A DNA stretch of 60,558 nucleotides from Thiomargarita sp. (GTDB lineage Bacteria > Pseudomonadota > Gammaproteobacteria > Beggiatoales > Beggiatoaceae): the NCBI GenBank assembly GCA_020718845.1, contig DYRG01000011.1, positions 1 through 60,558 on the forward strand, written 5' to 3'. Of the stretch, positions 46,641-58,697 are shown in pieces. Both the position numbers and the translations under genes were made by a program. Every line of letters begins with the position of its first letter. Within the stretch, counting starts at the first letter, position 1. The notes under the pieces were generated by a model. It did not search any database. It had not been told where the DNA came from and worked only from the letters and a program-made list of their open reading frames with translations.

Positions 46641-47891
46641 ATGGAATTATTTGCTTTTGGCGTTAATCATACCACTGCGTCGGTGGATATTCGGGAGAAA
46701 CTGAGCTTTCCAGAAGCCCAAATTCCCCAAGCATTACAATCTCTTAAACACGATGCCCACGTTCAAGAAGCCGTCATCATTTCAACTTGTAATCGCACCG
46801 AATTATATTGCAGCGTTCGTGATAATTATAAATATGTCATTGATTGGTTTGGAGAATATCACTCGATGCCACGCGATAAATTAACGCCTTTTTTATACCA
46901 ACATCCTTCCACTTCTGCCGTTCGACATTTGTTGCGGGTCGCGTGCGGATTAGATTCTCTTGTTTTAGGCGAACCACAAATCCTTGGTCAAATCAAAAAA
47001 GCCTATAAAATCGCCCAAGAAAATGGAACATCTGGCAAATTATTAGGCAAACTTTTTCAACACAGTTTTAACGTTGCAAAACAGGTAAGAACTGATACGG
47101 CAATTGGTTCAAGTCCAGTTTCTGTGGCATTTGCAGCGGTGCGTTTGGCACAACAAATCTTTGGGGATTTGAAACCGCACACGGCTCTTTTAATTGGCGC
47201 GGGAGAAACCATTGAATTAGCGGCTCGACATTTACACGCTTCTCAATTGGGTAGAATGATCATTGCAAATCGAACCTTAGAACGCGCTCGACATTTAGCA
47301 TTACAATTCGGGGGTTATGCGATTACTTTGCCAGAAATCACTGAGCATTTAGCAGAAGCTGATGTAGTGATTTCTTCGACGGGAAGTCCTGATTACATTT
47401 TGCACGCCCCACAAATCAAAGATGCTTTAAAAACTCGCAAACGTCGACCAATGTTTATGGTCGATATTGCCGTTCCTCGAGATATTGATCCAGCGATTTC
47501 AAAATTTGATGATGTGTATTTGTACACGGTTGATGATTTGCAAGGCGTAATTGAGGAAAATCGTCGTTCTCGAGCAGAAGCAGCGAAACAAGCAGAAGAA
47601 ATCATCGATACGCAAGTTGATCATTTCATTAGTTGGATGCAATCGTTAGGAAGTGTTGAAACCATTCGAGCAATTAGAAACCAAGCTCAAACCATTCAAA
47701 GCCAAGTTTTAGAAAAAGCCCATCAAATGCTCAAAAACGGCAAATCACCCGAAGAAACTTTGCAATTTCTTTCAAATCGTCTAATGAATACACTTTTACA
47801 CGAACCTTTAGTGCAGCTCCGTCAAGCAGGATCAAATAACGATATAGAATTTATTTCAATTGCCCGTCAACTTTTCAATATTTCTGAATAA
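46641..47891 (+). CDS. hemA: Glutamyl-tRNA reductase
   Basis: 416 residues. It reduces Glu-tRNA to glutamate-1-semialdehyde, the committing step of C5 heme synthesis. Catalytic Cys50 lies in STCNRTE, the NADPH-binding region includes LLIGAGETIELAARHL, and a C-terminal dimerisation domain is present. In relatives prfA follows; here the DGR cassette starts 24 bp after the stop codon. Confidence 0.95.
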   Translation: MELFAFGVNHTTASVDIREKLSFPEAQIPQALQSLKHDAHVQEAVIISTCNRTELYCSVRDNYKYVIDWFGEYHSMPRDKLTPFLYQHPSTSAVRHLLRVACGLDSLVLGEPQILGQIKKAYKIAQENGTSGKLLGKLFQHSFNVAKQVRTDTAIGSSPVSVAFAAVRLAQQIFGDLKPHTALLIGAGETIELAARHLHASQLGRMIIANRTLERARHLALQFGGYAITLPEITEHLAEADVVISSTGSPDYILHAPQIKDALKTRKRRPMFMVDIAVPRDIDPAISKFDDVYLYTVDDLQGVIEENRRSRAEAAKQAEEIIDTQVDHFISWMQSLGSVETIRAIRNQAQTIQSQVLEKAHQMLKNGKSPEETLQFLSNRLMNTLLHEPLVQLRQAGSNNDIEFISIARQLFNISE

Positions 47892-47915
47892 ATAAATTTC
47901 ATGGAGGTAAAAAAA

Positions 47916-49742
47916 ATGTTCACAGAAATAGTCACAGTAATGCAAGGCGTTAAAGGGGTTTATGATCTCAAACAAATTGCGACCACGCTTTGGAAAGGCG
48001 ATAAAAAAGAACAATTGTTAGAATCTTTAGTGCAAATGATGGAAGATCAAATCCGTCAGAATAAAGATGGCACGGACGAATTAAAACAATTGCTTTCTAG
48101 CATTAAACAAGGAAATGTTGAGAAACTAGATGAGCGGATGTTGTATTTGCCAGAAGTGCAAGTGTTACGCGATACCAGTCGTCAAGCGCAGCAATTAATT
48201 GATGATTTGAGAACCGTTAAAGAATCCTTATTGCCATTTCAACGTGCATTGGGTGAGGATTTGTTATCGTCGGCATTAATGATTACGCCTGAGAAAATGC
48301 AGCAGGCTTTTAATAAAAGTCCTTGGGAAGTTTTAATTGATGTGCGTCCGTTAGGATTGGCTTCTCGCCCGAGCAATCCTGATTTGATTCCGATTGCATT
48401 TGAACACCAAAACATGAAATATTTGGGTTGGCAAATGCGAGGAATGTTGCCAATGATGTTTAATTGTGAATTGGAGCAATTATGGATTTCACGACCAGAG
48501 ATTATTTTACCGCGTCCTCCGATTCCAACTCCTCCAATTCCAATTGATGATCCGATTTCTTCAAATGAACCGATTCAAATGCCCACGCAATCATCGGTGA
48601 CGGATTATCCTAAACAACCCGATTTTGAAGCGATTTTTAATGCCGAGCGTGATCCATTTGAATATCCAGAGGAATTTGTTCATCGTTATCAAATGGATAT
48701 TGCGCGATTTAATTTGGCAGTTTCACAACATGAAGCGGCTTATCAAGCGGGGATTGCTCGATTAGATCGCAAAAAATATGATATTCATTCGGGGGAATTT
48801 CCCGTTGAAATTGTTTTGAAAGAATCATTTAAAAAATCATTTCATTTGCCTTTACAAAACAGTATTCAAGCGTCGAGAGCAGATGCGAGAGGATTATGGG
48901 ATGAAGGACAAGAAAAACCGTTGTTTTTAACCTTGCAAGCAACCGAGCCAAATAAAATTAAAATACAACAAGTGTTTGTGGTGGGTTTGCAAAAACGTTG
49001 GGGTTTGAAAGTACAAATACCAAAAGTCGGTGAAGAATTTCGTGATCAACTTAAATCAGGCGGTCAAGCACCACCCATGATCATTTTACCCACAGGTAGT
49101 TTTAAGATGGGAAGTAATGATTATGGTGATGAAAAACCGATCCATGAGGTTAAAATTGATCATGAATTTGCGATAGGAAAATATCAAGTTACTTTTGAGG
49201 ATTATGATTTGTATTGTGAAAGAACAGGTCAAAGCAAACCGAGTGATCAAGGTTGGGGACGTGGTAAAAGACCAGTGATTAATGTTTCTTGGGATGAAGC
49301 CGTTAAATATTGTGAATGGTTAAGCAAAGAAACGGATAAAAAATATCGGTTGCCAACCGAAGCCGAATGGGAATATGCTTGTCGAGCAACTAGTCAAACA
49401 AAATGGTGTTTTGGTGATAACGAAAATGATTTGAAAGAGTATGCTTGGTATAGTGCAAATTCAGATAGCAAAACTCAGGAGGTTAGAGAGAAAAAACCGA
49501 ACAAATTTGGTTTATTTGATATGCACGGAAACGTTTGGGAATGGACGTGTAGTGATTATGGAAACTACAGTGAAAACAATCACTTAGAATGTTCTAGCAA
49601 TAATTATGCCAGTAATCCCCGCTCGATTCGGGGCGGTTCTTGGAACTTCGGTCCGAGGGGCGTGCGCTCGGCTAATCGTTACTACCTCTCGCCAGACTAC
49701 CGTAGCAGCTACTTGGGTTTCCGTCTCTCCAGGATTTTTTAA
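47916..49742 (+). CDS. DGR target protein with C-terminal FGE/C-type-lectin-fold domain
   Basis: 608 residues from the ATG at 47916, with GGAGG 8 nt upstream. No signal peptide or TM helix, so it is probably cytoplasmic. Residues about 1-130 form a helical region of unknown family (MFTEIVTVMQGVKG..., then a coiled coil). A Pro-rich linker (about 200-235) leads to an unassigned domain (about 240-375). Residues about 385-608 form a formylglycine-generating-enzyme-like (FGE) domain: LPTGSFKMGS, YQVTFEDYDLYCE, RLPTEAEWEYACR, GLFDMHGNVWEW. Its last 40 residues are the variable repeat. The Cys pair of true FGE enzymes after RGGSW is absent, so it should bind and not catalyse. It is the first gene of the DGR cassette. 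Confidence 0.93.
   Translation: MFTEIVTVMQGVKGVYDLKQIATTLWKGDKKEQLLESLVQMMEDQIRQNKDGTDELKQLLSSIKQGNVEKLDERMLYLPEVQVLRDTSRQAQQLIDDLRTVKESLLPFQRALGEDLLSSALMITPEKMQQAFNKSPWEVLIDVRPLGLASRPSNPDLIPIAFEHQNMKYLGWQMRGMLPMMFNCELEQLWISRPEIILPRPPIPTPPIPIDDPISSNEPIQMPTQSSVTDYPKQPDFEAIFNAERDPFEYPEEFVHRYQMDIARFNLAVSQHEAAYQAGIARLDRKKYDIHSGEFPVEIVLKESFKKSFHLPLQNSIQASRADARGLWDEGQEKPLFLTLQATEPNKIKIQQVFVVGLQKRWGLKVQIPKVGEEFRDQLKSGGQAPPMIILPTGSFKMGSNDYGDEKPIHEVKIDHEFAIGKYQVTFEDYDLYCERTGQSKPSDQGWGRGKRPVINVSWDEAVKYCEWLSKETDKKYRLPTEAEWEYACRATSQTKWCFGDNENDLKEYAWYSANSDSKTQEVREKKPNKFGLFDMHGNVWEWTCSDYGNYSENNHLECSSNNYASNPRSIRGGSWNFGPRGVRSANRYYLSPDYRSSYLGFRLSRIF
49618..49732 (+). repeat. DGR variable repeat (VR)
   Basis: 115 bp at the 3' end of the target gene, ending three codons before the stop codon. 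It aligns without gaps to the template repeat at 51240-51354 (offset 1622). There are 15 differences and all lie at adenines of the template; the 85 non-A positions are identical. Eleven codons differ, including AAC to TTC, AAT to GGT, AAC to TAC, AAC to CTC and ATG to GTG. The last 20 bp, TTGGGTTTCCGTCTCTCCAG, are unchanged and fit the initiation-of-mutagenic-homology end. Confidence 0.97.
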
Positions 49743-49768
49743 TCTTTTTTCTTTGTTCTTTTACCCTT

Positions 49769-49795
49769 TTCCGCGCAGCGCGCGGAATTTTTTTT
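49769..49795 (+). terminator. GC hairpin after VR: terminator and/or DGR recognition hairpin
   Basis: An 8-bp stem TTCCGCGC/GCGCGGAA with a 3-nt loop is followed by eight T. It lies 36 bp after VR. Its form fits an intrinsic terminator for the target gene; in the Bordetella phage DGR a hairpin close after VR is needed for efficient target recognition, so it may serve both uses. Confidence 0.75.
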
Positions 49796-49818
49796 CACCG
49801 CATATCCTTTAATTTTAT

Positions 49819-50160
49819 ATGGAAATAAAAGCTGTTCCTCAAGCGGTACAAAGTTGTCATGATTTACTACTGTGGATAATTCCACATTTAAATAAGTTTC
49901 CACGAATCCACCGTTTTACGTTAGGAGAACGTCTTGAAACAAGATTACTAAGTGTCTTAGAAGATTTAGTGGAAGCAGCCTATAGCAAACAGAAAGCAAC
50001 AGCATTGCAACGGGCTAATCGCACACTTGAAATCATCAGACATTTATGGAGATTATCTCATGAATTGAAAATTATTTCAACTAATCAATATGAATATGGA
50101 GCAAAATTAGTGAATGAAGTGGGAAGACAAATTGGAGGTTGGTTGAAAAGCCAAAGCTGA
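49819..50160 (+). CDS. avd: DGR accessory variability determinant (Avd)
   Basis: 113 residues, all helical and basic, with the bAvd/four-helix-bundle signature FPRIHRFTLGERLE near residues 27-40. Avd forms a pentameric ring that binds the reverse transcriptase and the template RNA and is needed for cDNA synthesis. It lies between the target gene and the RT gene and ends 6 bp before the RT start. Confidence 0.93.
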   Translation: MEIKAVPQAVQSCHDLLLWIIPHLNKFPRIHRFTLGERLETRLLSVLEDLVEAAYSKQKATALQRANRTLEIIRHLWRLSHELKIISTNQYEYGAKLVNEVGRQIGGWLKSQS

Positions 50161-50166
50161 GAAACA

Positions 50167-51297
50167 ATGAAAAGAGTTGGTTATTTGTGGGAAGAGATGA
50201 CTAGTTTTGAGAATTTATTGTTAGCTTACTATAAAGCTCGACGAGGAAAACGCTATCGACCTGCGGTAGCAAGTTTCTCATTAGAATTAGAGAAAGAATT
50301 ATTAAATTTGCAAGAAGAACTTATTAATAAAACTTATCAACCGAGTGAGTATCGATTATTCACAATTTATGAGCGAGAAAAACCTCGTTTAATTGCGGCT
50401 GCGCCATTTCGAGATCGGGTTGTGCATCATGCTGTTATGAATATTATCGAACCGATATTTGACAAACGTTTTATTTTTGACTCGTATGCTTGTCGGATTG
50501 GTAAAGGCGTACATCGAGCAGTTGATCGGTATCAGGGCTGGGCGCAACGCTATCGTTATGTTTTAAAAATGGATATTCAAAAATATTTTCCTTCGATTGA
50601 CCATCTTTTATTGAAAGAAAAACTACATCATGTTTTGAAAGATCAAGCGGTTTTAAATTTATTAGAAGTTATTATTGATGCAGCTCCTCGATCACCCATT
50701 CCTCCCATGTTTTTCCCCAATGATGATTTGCTTACTTCTGTGGAGAGAAAAAAAAGCATTCCGATTGGTAATTTAACCAGCCAATTTTTAGCTAATTTAT
50801 ATTTAAACGATTTTGATCATTTTGTTAAACATCAATTACGCATTCAGCCTTATTTAAGATATGTTGATGATTTTGTTATTTTAGCAAATGACAAGGTTTA
50901 TTTGCGTGAGGTGCGTGAGCAAATTAGTGTTTTTTTACAGAAAGAACGCTTAGTTCCTCATCCCAACAAAGCACAGATTACACCAACGGCTTGTGGACTT
51001 AATTTATTAGGTTATCGAGTCTTTCCCCATTTACGCCGATTACGCAAAGCAAATGTCTTTCGTTTCATTCGTAAATTAAAAACATTTAAACGAGAATATG
51101 CGCAAGGAAAGATGACTTGGCAAGATTTCAACCCTTGCGTACAAAGTTGGTTAGGTCACGCTAAACACGCTCAAACACAAGCCTTGAGAGAAAAGATATT
51201 TTCTGATATTCTATTCCACAGGGAGTTCACCAGTGGAAACCCGCTCGATTCGGGGCGGTTCTTGGAACAACAATCCGAGGAACATGCGCTCGGCTAA
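50167..51297 (+). CDS. DGR-type reverse transcriptase
   Basis: 376 residues. RT motifs in order: [12 protein letters not shown] (134-145, first catalytic Asp136), the DGR-typical IGNLTSQ (200-206, where most RTs have QG), and YVDD (232-235), then [15 protein letters not shown]. There is no maturase or endonuclease domain, fitting DGR RTs, which copy TR RNA with errors opposite adenine. The last 19 codons (from about 51240) are encoded inside the template repeat, in a different frame from the one that matches VR. Confidence 0.95.
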
Positions 51298-51354
51298 TCG
51301 TAACAACAACTCGCCAGACAACCGTAACAACAACTTGGGTTTCCGTCTCTCCAG
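51240..51354 (+). repeat. DGR template repeat (TR)
   Basis: 115 bp that match VR apart from 15 adenine positions. It contains 30 adenines, 24 of them in 12 AAC/AAT codons (in the VR frame). Read in that frame it gives RGGSWNNN..., [21 protein letters not shown] codons can mutate to NNY but never to a stop. It starts within the RT gene and runs 57 bp past its stop codon. Confidence 0.97.
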
Positions 51355-51524
51355 TCTTGCTTGCTCTCAGAGTGCAGCTATTACAAAATAATTGCAGCGT
51401 GGCGTAAGCAATCCATGTGTGAATTTCCTTGCTTAACTCGCAAAATAATTATGACCACTCTAATTAAGTAACCTATTGAAAAATTAGAGTTTTATTTAGT
51501 TTGTAACCCTTTACACTTTCTTTT

Positions 51525-51557
51525 AAACCTTCTAGGTTTTGAAAACCTAGAAGGTTT
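51525..51557. repeat. 33-bp palindromic repeat, copy A
   Basis: Perfect 16-bp arms (AAACCTTCTAGGTTTT and its reverse complement) around one central base. Same length and ends as the elements at 54628 and 56444. Located 170 bp past the DGR template repeat. Confidence 0.85.
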
Positions 51558-55575: not shown

Positions 55576-56418
55576 CTAGGGAAAAAGAAACAACGCCAAC
55601 CGAAAACCGAAGTTGCTGCCCCTAACTGCTGAGTTGAAGCCACGACAAGAAGAACGACAACCCTCCGCATGATTGAACCAAGAACCGCCGCGCAACAGCT
55701 TATTTATATTAAAGATATGGTTTTTATGTGCTGCTTGGGTGCGGGGCGTATTAAAATGTTCTTTCCAAGAATCTTCGCACCATTCCCAGACATTCCCGTG
55801 CATTTGATACAATCCAAAATTGTTCGCGTGTTTGAAATAATCTACCTCTACCGTTTGCTTACGATAATCTCCTTTTGGAGTATTTCCATACGGGTAATTA
55901 TCATTGTAATTTACCAAATCAGTTGTAATGGTTTCTCCAAAGTGATAAGGCGTAGTAGTTCCTCCACGACACGCATATTCCCATTCCGCTTCAGTTGGCA
56001 AACGAAATTCCATTTCTAACTTTTGAGAAAGTTTCTCACAAAATGTTTTTGCTTCTGACCAATAAACGGTTTCTACGGGACGTTTCTCTCCTTTGAAATA
56101 TGAAGGATTAGTTCCCATAATTTGTTGATATTGTGCTTGCGTTACAGGATATTTCCCCATCCAAAACGCTTTTTTTATTTCAACTTGATGGGCAGGTTTC
56201 TCATCTGAGTTGCCATTTTCACTCCCCATTTGAAAAGAACCTTTAGGAATAGACACCATTTCAAGTTTTATCCCATTTCCCAAATCAAAAACAACTCGTT
56301 TTGCTTGTGATTGACTTGTTTCTAAAATAGGTTCTTTGATAATTTTTTGACGTGTTGTTAAACCAAACCAAGCAGATTCCTCAATCATTTTTTCACGAGA
56401 ACCTTTTATCGTCACCAC
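55576..56418 (-). CDS. FGE-like protein, candidate second DGR target
   Basis: 280 residues from a GTG; an internal ATG (MIEESAWFG) is an alternative. The FGE/C-type-lectin domain has IPKGSFQMGSE, YPVTQAQYQQIMG, RLPTEAEWEYACRGG and MHGNVWEW. The C-terminus (RGGSWFNHAEGCRSSCRG..., FGFRLALFLFP) lacks the first catalytic Cys of FGE enzymes. All 12 codons that align with AAY codons of the DGR template are NNY. The frame is open upstream to the kinase stop codon, with which it is in phase, so it may once have been the C-terminal part of the kinase. Confidence 0.85.
   Translation of the reverse strand: MVTIKGSREKMIEESAWFGLTTRQKIIKEPILETSQSQAKRVVFDLGNGIKLEMVSIPKGSFQMGSENGNSDEKPAHQVEIKKAFWMGKYPVTQAQYQQIMGTNPSYFKGEKRPVETVYWSEAKTFCEKLSQKLEMEFRLPTEAEWEYACRGGTTTPYHFGETITTDLVNYNDNYPYGNTPKGDYRKQTVEVDYFKHANNFGLYQMHGNVWEWCEDSWKEHFNTPRTQAAHKNHIFNINKLLRGGSWFNHAEGCRSSCRGFNSAVRGSNFGFRLALFLFP
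55594..55692 (-). repeat. Candidate orphan DGR variable repeat
   Basis: C-terminal coding region from RGGSW to the LGFRL-equivalent. It is aligned with TR of the nearby DGR at the protein level, one residue shorter, but differs at non-A positions (for example CGG to CGC, CCG to GCG), so that TR did not write it. The NNY pattern at all 12 variable positions suggests a different template. Confidence 0.5.
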
Positions 56419-56443
56419 ATCAAAGTTAAAACTTTCCTCTTTT

Positions 56444-56476
56444 AAACCTGAAAGGTTTTAAAAACCTTTCAGGTTT
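56444..56476. repeat. 33-bp palindromic repeat, copy C (splits kinase and FGE ORFs)
   Basis: Perfect 16-bp arms (AAACCTGAAAGGTTTT and its reverse complement) around one base. It is 11 codons long. Its centre supplies the TAA that ends the kinase gene; its other half is in frame with the FGE-like gene. Confidence 0.85.
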
Positions 56477-58629
56477 GATGTTTGGCGTTTTTTTAGTTCT
56501 TCTTGTTCGCGCTTCAAACGGTCAGCTTCTTGTTGAAGTTCAAGAAGTTTTTGACGTTGTTTTTCATCGGTTTCGTGTTTCAAATTAGCGATTTGTTTTT
56601 GCAACGCTTCCAATGCGGTTTGTTGTTTGCGCTGTTCTTCAACCGTTAAATTGCGTTGTTTAAGTTCTTCTTCACGTTTTTTTGCCAAATCCAACGCATC
56701 CGCTAATTGTTTTTGTAATTCAGCTAAACGTCGTTGTTCTTCTTCACGCTTCTCTTTTTCAATTCTCTCTTGTTCCTCTTGTTGAAGACGGCGTTTCTCT
56801 TCTTCTAATAATTGCTGTTGTTTTAAGGTTGGCAAAGCCTGAAGTTTTTCAATCACTTCTTTCAAAGTCGGACGTTCATTTGGATCATCTTCCACACAAT
56901 CACATAACAAATTAAAAAGCTCAAGCGAGTTCTTAAATTCTTTTGGATTCAATACTCTAGGCGTTTTATTGCTTAAAAGCACATACAAGGTTTTTCCCAA
57001 CGCATAAATGTCACTTTTAACCGACGGTTTGCCGTATTGTGTATGACCCAGTTGTTCAGGCGGCGCGTAATCGTATGTTCCCGCAATGCTTTGCCCCAAC
57101 ATCGTTAAATGCGTAGCATGACGAGTCATTGCGGTTTGAGAAACCGTATCACTTAATTGACTTAATCCAAAATCAATGATTTTTACGGCAATCTTTTGAT
57201 CTACTTCTTGAAATAAAAGATTCGCAGGTTTCAAATCCAAATGCAATAAGTTTTTACTATGCGCTAATTGCAATCCTTGCGTAATCGACAATGCAACGGG
57301 CAAACCTTGTTCTAAACTCAATTTACCTTTGCATTTCAACCAACTTTCACCATCTAAGGCATTTTCAATATATTCAGTCACAAAATATGCACGACTTTGT
57401 TTCTGATTATCCACATAACCATAATGTAAAGGTTGCGGAACAAATTCTCCTGCAATTTCACTCATTAAAAAGGCTTCTTTGAAAATTTCATCGGCTTTGC
57501 CAGCGCGTGATTTCCAGAAACATTTAACCACCACTTTTTTGCGTTGAAATTTGAAATAACACAAAAACACCACGCCCATCCCACCTGCACCCAAAATTTT
57601 CTCAATCGGATATATATCAACTTCATGCAACGCATAACGGTTTTTTTCTAAAGAAAGCGCGGTTTGATATTCAGTTAAAGCTAACTCAAATTGCTTGTTT
57701 TTTAAATGCAGTTGAAATAAATTAAACGCAATCAACGCCAATTCACTTTGATTAGAAGTTGCTTGACGCGCTTGTTTCAATAAATCCATCGCCATTGAAA
57801 CATTTCCCGTCGACGCAACCAATGTCCCGCCATGAATTGCCAACGCGGTAAATTGCGGATTATTAACGGGTAATTGTTTGATTTGATCGACGGCTTGTCG
57901 AATTAATTGCAAACTATCGCTGGAGTGTTGGGTAAATTCATCGTGCGGTTGAATTTGAGGTTGTAATGCCTGACGTTGTAAGATTTCTGAAAGCTGATCT
58001 TGTAATTTTTTAACATCTTGTCGAAAGCCGCGTTGTTCTAAATGTTTCAAAGTTTCTGCAAAACGTTGATTTTGCCGCAGTTCCTCTTCTAAGAAAAATA
58101 ACACCGCTTTACCCAATAAATCATTACTTTTGAAAAACTTTTTAACGTTTTCAGAAAGCGTCATTTGTTGAGCAATGTCATTTAAAACCAAATCGGTAAT
58201 TGCTAAAGATTCCTCATCTCTCAATAATCCCGCAAGTTCTTTTTCAGAAATCACCGATTGATCACCCCCAAATAAGGCTTCTTTATTTTTTAATAAAAGC
58301 CCATTTGCAATCTGTAATTCTTTGATCAATTCATTCAAATCTAAGTTTTCTATTTGAAGGAAATTTGATACATAAGTTTCATTGACTTGATCCGCAAATT
58401 CTTTGAGCAAGTTGCTCTGTAAAATAGAAAACTTTCCTGTCACACCCGCTTCAATAGATTTTAAGGCTTGCTCAAAACTCCGTTGATAGGCAATCGCAAT
58501 TTCTTGCGCGGTTAAAGTGAAATGCTGTTCCAAGGTTTCAAGCGCGTTTTTAAAATCAACCGGCGTTAACGCTTTTAAAGTGCGAAAAATCCCACTTAAT
58601 CCCTTTTGCATGAATTTTGGTAATGCCAT
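56458..58629 (-). CDS. Ser/Thr protein kinase with a C-terminal coiled coil
   Basis: 723 residues from the ATG at 58629, with GGAG 7 nt upstream. A helical N-terminal half (about 1-340, with a TPR-like segment) is followed by a kinase domain (about 340-610): ILGAGGMGVVFL, VVVKCFW, HLDLKPANLL (Leu replaces Arg of HRD), IDFGLSQ, YAPPEQLG. A long charged coiled coil rich in Glu, Lys and Gln (about 610-715) ends abruptly at SNLKGF, encoded by the palindromic repeat. No TM helix. The FGE-like gene continues in the same frame after one stop codon. Confidence 0.9.
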   Translation of the reverse strand: MALPKFMQKGLSGIFRTLKALTPVDFKNALETLEQHFTLTAQEIAIAYQRSFEQALKSIEAGVTGKFSILQSNLLKEFADQVNETYVSNFLQIENLDLNELIKELQIANGLLLKNKEALFGGDQSVISEKELAGLLRDEESLAITDLVLNDIAQQMTLSENVKKFFKSNDLLGKAVLFFLEEELRQNQRFAETLKHLEQRGFRQDVKKLQDQLSEILQRQALQPQIQPHDEFTQHSSDSLQLIRQAVDQIKQLPVNNPQFTALAIHGGTLVASTGNVSMAMDLLKQARQATSNQSELALIAFNLFQLHLKNKQFELALTEYQTALSLEKNRYALHEVDIYPIEKILGAGGMGVVFLCYFKFQRKKVVVKCFWKSRAGKADEIFKEAFLMSEIAGEFVPQPLHYGYVDNQKQSRAYFVTEYIENALDGESWLKCKGKLSLEQGLPVALSITQGLQLAHSKNLLHLDLKPANLLFQEVDQKIAVKIIDFGLSQLSDTVSQTAMTRHATHLTMLGQSIAGTYDYAPPEQLGHTQYGKPSVKSDIYALGKTLYVLLSNKTPRVLNPKEFKNSLELFNLLCDCVEDDPNERPTLKEVIEKLQALPTLKQQQLLEEEKRRLQQEEQERIEKEKREEEQRRLAELQKQLADALDLAKKREEELKQRNLTVEEQRKQQTALEALQKQIANLKHETDEKQRQKLLELQQEADRLKREQEELKKRQTSNLKGF

Positions 58630-58697
58630 TGCCTTCTCCATTTTTTAACATGGGTTTTAATCTGTGTATTATGATTTACTTGCATAAAGATGACAAT

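Follow-up and report, generated by a model that had tools for sequence, protein, structure and literature searches.

The stretch analysed here (hereafter the window) is 60,558 nucleotides long and comes from contig DYRG01000011.1 of a Thiomargarita sp. assembly (GCA_020718845.1). It carries a set of features that together very probably make up a complete diversity-generating retroelement (DGR) with one target: a target gene ending in a variable repeat (VR), the gene avd, a reverse transcriptase (RT) gene, and a template repeat (TR) from which the VR differs at adenines only, followed by a predicted RNA fold. Elements of this kind are already known – DGRs have been surveyed in thousands of genomes (PMC6642488) – and what is added here is the RNA at the edge of the TR and an N-terminal domain that the target shares with other proteins. 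The cassette contains the following features (aa, amino acids; FGE, formylglycine-generating enzyme):

47916..49742, + strand: DGR target gene, 608 aa (613 aa if read from 47901, where the frame opens); FGE-sulfatase match of 7.7e-52 at aa 390-609 of the 613-aa reading
49618..49732, + strand: VR, at the 3' end of the target gene, from alignment with the TR
49769..49787, + strand: GC-rich hairpin TTCCGCGC-AGC-GCGCGGAA, 36 bp after the VR and followed by T8; candidate target-site hairpin and/or terminator
49819..50160, + strand: avd, 113 aa; NF033474 at 110.9 bits (cut-off 80), Pfam bAvd PF22296 at 3.4e-20
50167..51297, + strand: DGR reverse transcriptase, 376 aa; PF00078 at 2.6e-20, BPP-1 bRT 8ub7 at 1.9e-48 (phmmer)
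51240..51354, + strand: TR, from alignment with the VR; 30 adenines

Adenine-directed repeats and the genes between them

The VR and TR align over 115 bp with 15 mismatches, each of which lies opposite a TR adenine: 15 of the 30 adenines are changed (seven to T, seven to G and one to C) and none of the 85 other bases (hypergeometric P = 6.5e-11 for all 15 mismatches landing on A). Realignment reproduced exactly the coordinates and counts given in the first-pass annotation of this DNA. A base-specific scan for repeat pairs over the whole window recovered the same A-directed pair, extending it to 118 bp with 17 mismatches (17/17 at A); with the base swapped, the same scan of the whole window gave no C-, G- or T-directed pair. 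The TR holds 24 of its adenines within 12 AAY codons, as had been noted before, and the accompanying arithmetic is right: randomisation allows 4^24 (2.8e14) possible DNA variants, without a stop codon among them because NNY codons cannot be stops. Ten of the 12 AAY codons, plus ATG588, are changed in the VR and there encode F G G V Y Y L Y S S Y. The homology is unchanged over 22 bp at its 3' end and 29 bp at its 5' end.

Between the two repeats the avd and RT frames are open, in agreement with the earlier description. The RT carries IGNLTSQ (at aa 200) and YVDD (at aa 232), which we take to be DGR-type motifs, its best solved relative is the RT of BPP-1, and its last 58 bases overlap the TR in a different frame. 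The target start at 47916, also proposed earlier, is preferred over the opening at 47901 and is backed by a GGAGG 8 bases upstream. With a TR/VR pair, a DGR-type RT, Avd and a lectin/FGE target whose VR is C-terminal, the original call of a complete DGR stands; its end point of 51354 needs correction, since conserved structured RNA continues at 51355-51453. The call had also placed the element next to hemA. That gene (46641-47891) is indeed immediately upstream of the target gene, but the adjacency has no visible meaning and looks incidental, because tblastn found no HemA in 17 relative DGR loci (of 3-18 kb each, so that a distant hemA would be missed).

The genome to which the window belongs (a 2.98-Mb assembly in 123 contigs, 99.97% complete) contains one Avd, one DGR RT (E <= 1e-30) and one VR: the TR used as a query against it matched just itself, the VR and a 19-base chance match. 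The presence of only one VR would fit an inactive relic – a cassette that formerly rewrote its VR and is now silent, with the VR fixed – and relics are known in relatives (an RT with an internal deletion at locus L154, an avd with a fragment of an RT at L129, a target broken at a contig end in genome G020). We nevertheless consider a relic unlikely here: target, Avd and RT all have open frames, the RT has its motifs, and the absence of any change among the 85 bases outside TR adenines indicates that the last copying into the VR was recent relative to ordinary mutation.

Related elements are found in 14 of 42 genomes of the family, the window genome included (DGR RTs at E <= 1e-30), and in eight of 369 sampled genomes of the class (E <= 1e-60). 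Among the first 70 loci (five from the window genome) an A-directed TR/VR pair was present in 36 and absent from 34, some of the latter being short or cut by the contig end. Fifteen loci picked for holding pairs yielded 19 pairs under a stricter score; after removal of a non-DGR repeat (L071, 4138/4475), 18 were left, the window included. In these 18 pairs adenines are changed at 301 of 590 positions and other bases at 6 of 1615, a ratio that is biased because the pair finder rewards A mismatches. The base-swap control on the same 15 loci returned no pairs for C or G and four for T: two are inverted A pairs on the opposite strand and two are the L071 repeat.

The RNA that follows the template repeat

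The sequence directly 3' of the TR is conserved among relatives despite lying outside genes. Comparison of these sequences shows a predicted RNA fold, supported by covariation, that begins where TR/VR homology ends: a helix (P1) starts at that point and encloses the motif CAGA and a hairpin (P2). In the window the element reads as follows:

51355..51453, + strand: TR-3' structured RNA, A-type; P1 pairs 51357-51364 with 51404-51411 around CAGAG and hairpin P2 (51373-51396), then come ATCCATGTGTGAATTTCCTTGC and GCAAAATA

Two types were recognised. The A-type (eight sequences including the window, two of them from one genome) has the order P1, CAGA, P2, GCGT, P1', an invariant CCAT and a conserved tail. 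The B-type (11 sequences, including three from cyanobacterial metagenome-assembled genomes) has the same layout in a different sequence, with a P2 loop that is mostly GGGA and an extra small hairpin. For the A-type, whose structure is RNAalifold's own prediction, 87.3% of cells are paired, 14 of 17 pairs show two-sided change, and the covariation score is 0.754 (0.273 when shuffled); the corresponding values for the B-type are 97.8%, 13 of 21 pairs and 0.539 (0.215 when shuffled). None of 500 shuffles reached the A-type or B-type values on any of five measures, and sliding the pairing partners by 1-3 columns lowered the covariation score to 0.21 or less.

Because the RNA sits at the 3' end of the operon, it might be a mere conserved 3' untranslated region or operon terminator, standing outside the priming machinery. 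Several observations make this very unlikely. The distance from P1 to the end of homology was read from alignments for 11 elements (a further eight have no measured end): in 10 of the 11 the first base of P1 lies 2-6 nt past the end of TR/VR homology, the exception being L010, in which homology extends 7 nt beyond the start of P1. The RNA also keeps the orientation of the TR even where the TR is inverted relative to the RT (L074, L077, L078/L015 and L014), and there the TR and its RNA are therefore probably transcribed apart from the RT gene. It is present, moreover, behind the TRs of L149 and L151, where the stretch examined holds no match to an RT, and its equivalent in phage BPP-1 matches the Rfam family Phage_DGR; this spacer RNA, which follows the BPP-1 TR, is reported to fold, to recruit bRT-Avd and to prime complementary DNA (cDNA) synthesis (PMC12875486).

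Genomes were searched with the RNA alone, using a model of the A-type built without the TR (R1, with the window sequence among its builders) and a model of the B-type (R2). R1 matches the window at 51355-51453. In the 42 family genomes it gave nine strong matches (E < 1e-14), six from model builders and three new, and R2 gave 10 (E < 1e-12), two of them new. In the 369 class genomes, for each of which only 10 candidates were scored, R1 was positive in five (E <= 0.001), of which two are new. These five all belong to the eight RT-positive genomes (Fisher 1e-9; three of the five built the model, and the new pair taken by itself gives about 1.5e-4). Four of the seven new copies directly follow a TR-like, AAC-rich sequence of the form GG(S/A)WNN...G(F/L)R (L149, L151, L153 and L154), and one (L129) lies next to avd and a fragment of an RT. 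The remaining two directly follow the 3' end of an FGE gene (L128, degenerate; L137, a diversified VR) and are weaker cases because FGE domains are not specific to DGRs. At L149 (G017:C11) and L151 (G030:C114) the TR and B-type RNA accompany an FGE gene, and TRs of this sort could escape a DGR finder centred on the RT. Six of the 15 R1 matches in family genomes (E 0.004-0.09) were treated as chance: tblastn over about 3 kb matched neither RT nor avd nor FGE. In 15 other DGR loci R1 gave eight sub-significant matches, of which four start at the measured 3' end of the TR (L121, L075, L061 and L060), two follow TR-like sequence (L020 and L024) and two lie elsewhere; none of the eight is in BPP-1 or in phage loci L120, L122 and L123.

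Three of these loci deserve separate mention. At L154 (G272:C25, 639-1609) avd accompanies a TR/VR pair with 17 of 18 mismatches at A, and the core of the RT has been lost by internal deletion, leaving two remnants in different frames; another RT lies on contig C261 of the same genome. L154 is possibly a non-autonomous DGR driven in trans, or else a fresh relic. L153 (G235) retains just avd and RT remnants. L137 (G041:C9) has two tandem FGE genes. The first has a diversified VR, and the TR-3' RNA comes straight after it in place of the normal VR flank, as if the TR flank had been copied into the target. In the window itself, shortly past the RNA element, lies a perfect 16-bp palindrome, AAACCTTCTAGGTTTT-G-AAAACCTAGAAGGTTT (51525-51557), which may be either a terminator or a dispersed repeat.

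Scored against Rfam, the window stays below the gathering score of every family, Phage_DGR (RF03022) included; the BPP-1 positive control scored 104.7. The family RT-14 (RF02921) matches the window element over its full length (51356-51490) at 29 bits, below its gathering score of 48.1. It shares with the window element the layout P1-CAGA-P2 (with a UAAG-type loop)-P1' and the position at the 3' end of a TR. Among the 42 family genomes none passes the RT-14 cut-off, so that both the A-type and the B-type fall outside RT-14 as curated; the best match is the window element (E 0.07), others have E 0.2-10, and the loose limit is non-specific (6 of 14 control genomes also match). The elements of L071 and L077 have no RT-14 match at E 1, and the A- and B-type elements of 19 loci have none to Rfam at E 0.1, three micro-RNA matches being taken as false. 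Both Rfam families do stand at TR 3' ends in phages: RT-14 is above threshold in Bacillus phage BalMu-1 (L121, 2334-2477, with the TR running to 2336), and Phage_DGR follows the TR of BPP-1 (L119) across a gap of 4 nt. These positions, the start of P1 at the end of homology and the TR-bound orientation lead us to infer that the window RNA is a cellular counterpart of the BPP-1 spacer, in which P1 would set the start of the cDNA. Among the literature matches listed, titles and abstract openings hold no treatment of a TR-3' RNA in cellular DGRs.

The target protein and its relatives

The target consists of an unnamed N-terminal domain, a proline-rich linker, a middle domain and a C-terminal FGE/C-type-lectin domain. 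The latter reaches aa 609 of 613 in the PF03781 (FGE) match, and the best solved relative is TvpA, a DGR variable protein of Treponema denticola (2y3c, 2.9e-31). At E 0.1 Pfam recognises nothing in residues 1-390, which contain two domains:

47901..48515, + strand: N-terminal domain (aa 1-205 in 613-aa numbering), unmatched in Pfam at E 0.1; consensus SAMILTPEKMQ.AL.KNPWEVL.DIRP and QY.GWQMRGTLP.LFDC
48600..49070, + strand: middle domain (aa 234-390); in relatives, and on contig C113 of the window genome, related domains stand behind segments that look PEGA-like by eye

Searches of Pfam, NCBIfam, PADLOC and PDB profiles gave no credible name for the N-terminal domain (the best PDB profile match, at 0.031, was to coiled-coil fibrinogen), and a scan of viral contigs confirmed no relatives of it. 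One or other of the two domains is present in 25 of the 42 family genomes, the window genome included. The loci examined hold 18 other proteins with the N-terminal domain. Pfam was run on 13 of these: the domain is followed by FGE in nine, by a beta-helix in two, by WD40 in one and by no Pfam domain in one. The last (L103, with a membrane region by eye) and one of the beta-helix proteins (L102) are both encoded in the window genome. Since the N-terminal domain is found in related proteins in combination with other sensor-like folds (WD40, beta-helix and other FGE domains), it may, as a weaker suggestion drawn from these domain arrangements, be the common coupling module of a sensor.

One relative, in G020, was seen to have the same three-part target (49% identity over aa 48-370); its target is interrupted at the end of a contig by what looks like an insertion sequence, and a second contig carries a VR tail, avd, RT and TR. 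FGE proteins with the N-terminal domain in other genomes were considered as TR targets and rejected: in the loci compared they form no pair with TRs of the same genome. Elsewhere in the window genome two tandem genes (L104, 4324-5837, - strand) combine a PEGA-like front (by eye) with the middle domain of the target.

What the diversified protein does can be approached through its relatives. Antigen sensing has been proposed for lectin proteins targeted by DGRs (PMC10907252). We regard it as possible, though less probable, that the protein is no immune sensor and works instead as an adhesin, in kin recognition or as a tuned enzyme. The FGE fold includes enzymes (the matches include PvdO and formylglycine-generating enzyme), kin recognition has itself been raised (PMC10907252), and Pfam found none of the VMAP ternary/STAND partners – MoxR ATPase, vWA, VMAP or STAND NTPase – in the six window proteins given to it, other neighbours being read by eye only. 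Set against this, the closest DGR loci fuse the same lectin domain to domains like those of proposed cell-death systems: of seven relative targets scanned, four are caspase-FGE proteins (one in L071, two in L072, one in L077) and one is a protein kinase-FGE protein (L077), the other two having an unnamed front before FGE (L073 and L074). Nor does inspection by eye, without a signal-peptide tool, show a secretion signal in the target.

The window holds a second FGE gene (55576-56418, 280 aa) beside the gene of a 727-aa protein (together 55576-58641, - strand). The 727-aa protein matches the kinase half of the fused kinase-FGE target of L077 (G030, L077:4878-7931) with 44% identity over the kinase part. 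The second FGE gene is not a target of the window TR, because that TR found only the matches given above; together with its neighbour it may be a relative of DGR targets that is split in two and not diversified.

Proposed mechanism and comparison with known systems

In the mechanism that we propose, one transcript would carry the TR together with its RNA tail; Avd and the RT would bind the P1/P2 fold, and P1 would set the start of cDNA synthesis at the 3' edge of the TR. The RT would copy the TR, misincorporating at adenines, and the cDNA would replace the VR, anchored by the unchanged 22 bp (3') and 29 bp (5'). The outcome would be that 12 asparagine codons are randomised, in the part of the C-type-lectin (FGE-like) domain presumed to face the ligand.

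More broadly, cellular DGRs may carry a family of TR-3' RNAs (A-type, B-type and the phage RT-14) with one layout, which would move with the TR independently of the RT and in which P1 would define the start of the cDNA, and the N-terminal domain of the local target may be a shared hub for interchangeable sensors (DGR lectin, WD40, beta-helix). We regard this joint reading as evenly poised between right and wrong. If it is true, then the RT-14 RNA is explained as a DGR priming RNA, and TRs can be found independently of the RT.

Several observations weigh against these readings. The window RNA alone folds no better than its own shuffles (z = 0.00; values for six other single sequences, 0.66 to -2.55), and the case for the RNA therefore rests on covariation. 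P1 of the B-type was entered by hand, RNAalifold alone having given a different short helix there; the hand-made helix is paired in 94.7% of cells, with two-sided change at three of seven pairs. Both R1 and R2 miss BPP-1, and the B-type model misses A-type elements. The hairpin 3' of the VR has an 8-bp GC-rich stem and a 3-nt AGC loop, lies 36 bp from the VR and reads also as a terminator; for phage DGRs Guo 2011 (PMC3240598) reports a 7-10 bp GC-rich stem with a 4-nt GRNA loop, 4-34 bp from the VR. Finally, an AlphaFold model of the N-terminal 390 aa, made without an alignment, has a predicted local distance difference test (pLDDT) score of 36, and a structure model of the lectin domain (nine sequences) is confident only outside the VR and poor over the VR part.

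A covariation-supported RNA at the TR edge of cellular DGRs opens the priming step to tests beyond BPP-1 and provides a search tool for TRs without a nearby RT. The shared N-terminal domain offers a concrete handle on the interaction partners of diversified sensors.

Among known systems, TvpA provides the best solved structure for the target, as a 294-aa chain that is matched from aa 401 on; the N-terminal and middle domains have no counterpart in the match. The cellular DGRs described as clade 5 (Thiohalocapsa PB-PSB1; PMC10907252) likewise have an FGE/CLec target with the VR in the lectin domain and, in some cases, a domainless N-terminal extension. The window element differs from them in its single VR and in the lack of STAND NTPase, vWA and MoxR domains among the six proteins scanned; its RT may belong to clade 5, as the type of target suggests.

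Prokaryotes are known to use DGRs for the targeted hypervariation of proteins, and in the literature examined the RNA side has been worked out for one phage element, BPP-1. The BPP-1 DGR (mtd/avd/TR/brt) resembles the window element in having Avd, a homologous RT (36% by tblastn), an annotated TR/VR system and a structured RNA just 3' of the TR. It differs in gene order, which in the window is target-avd-RT-TR, so that the RNA is placed after the RT and not between TR and RT as in BPP-1. The two RNAs are not recognisably related in sequence, and where the target of BPP-1 is a tail protein, that of the window is a cellular protein of the FGE type.

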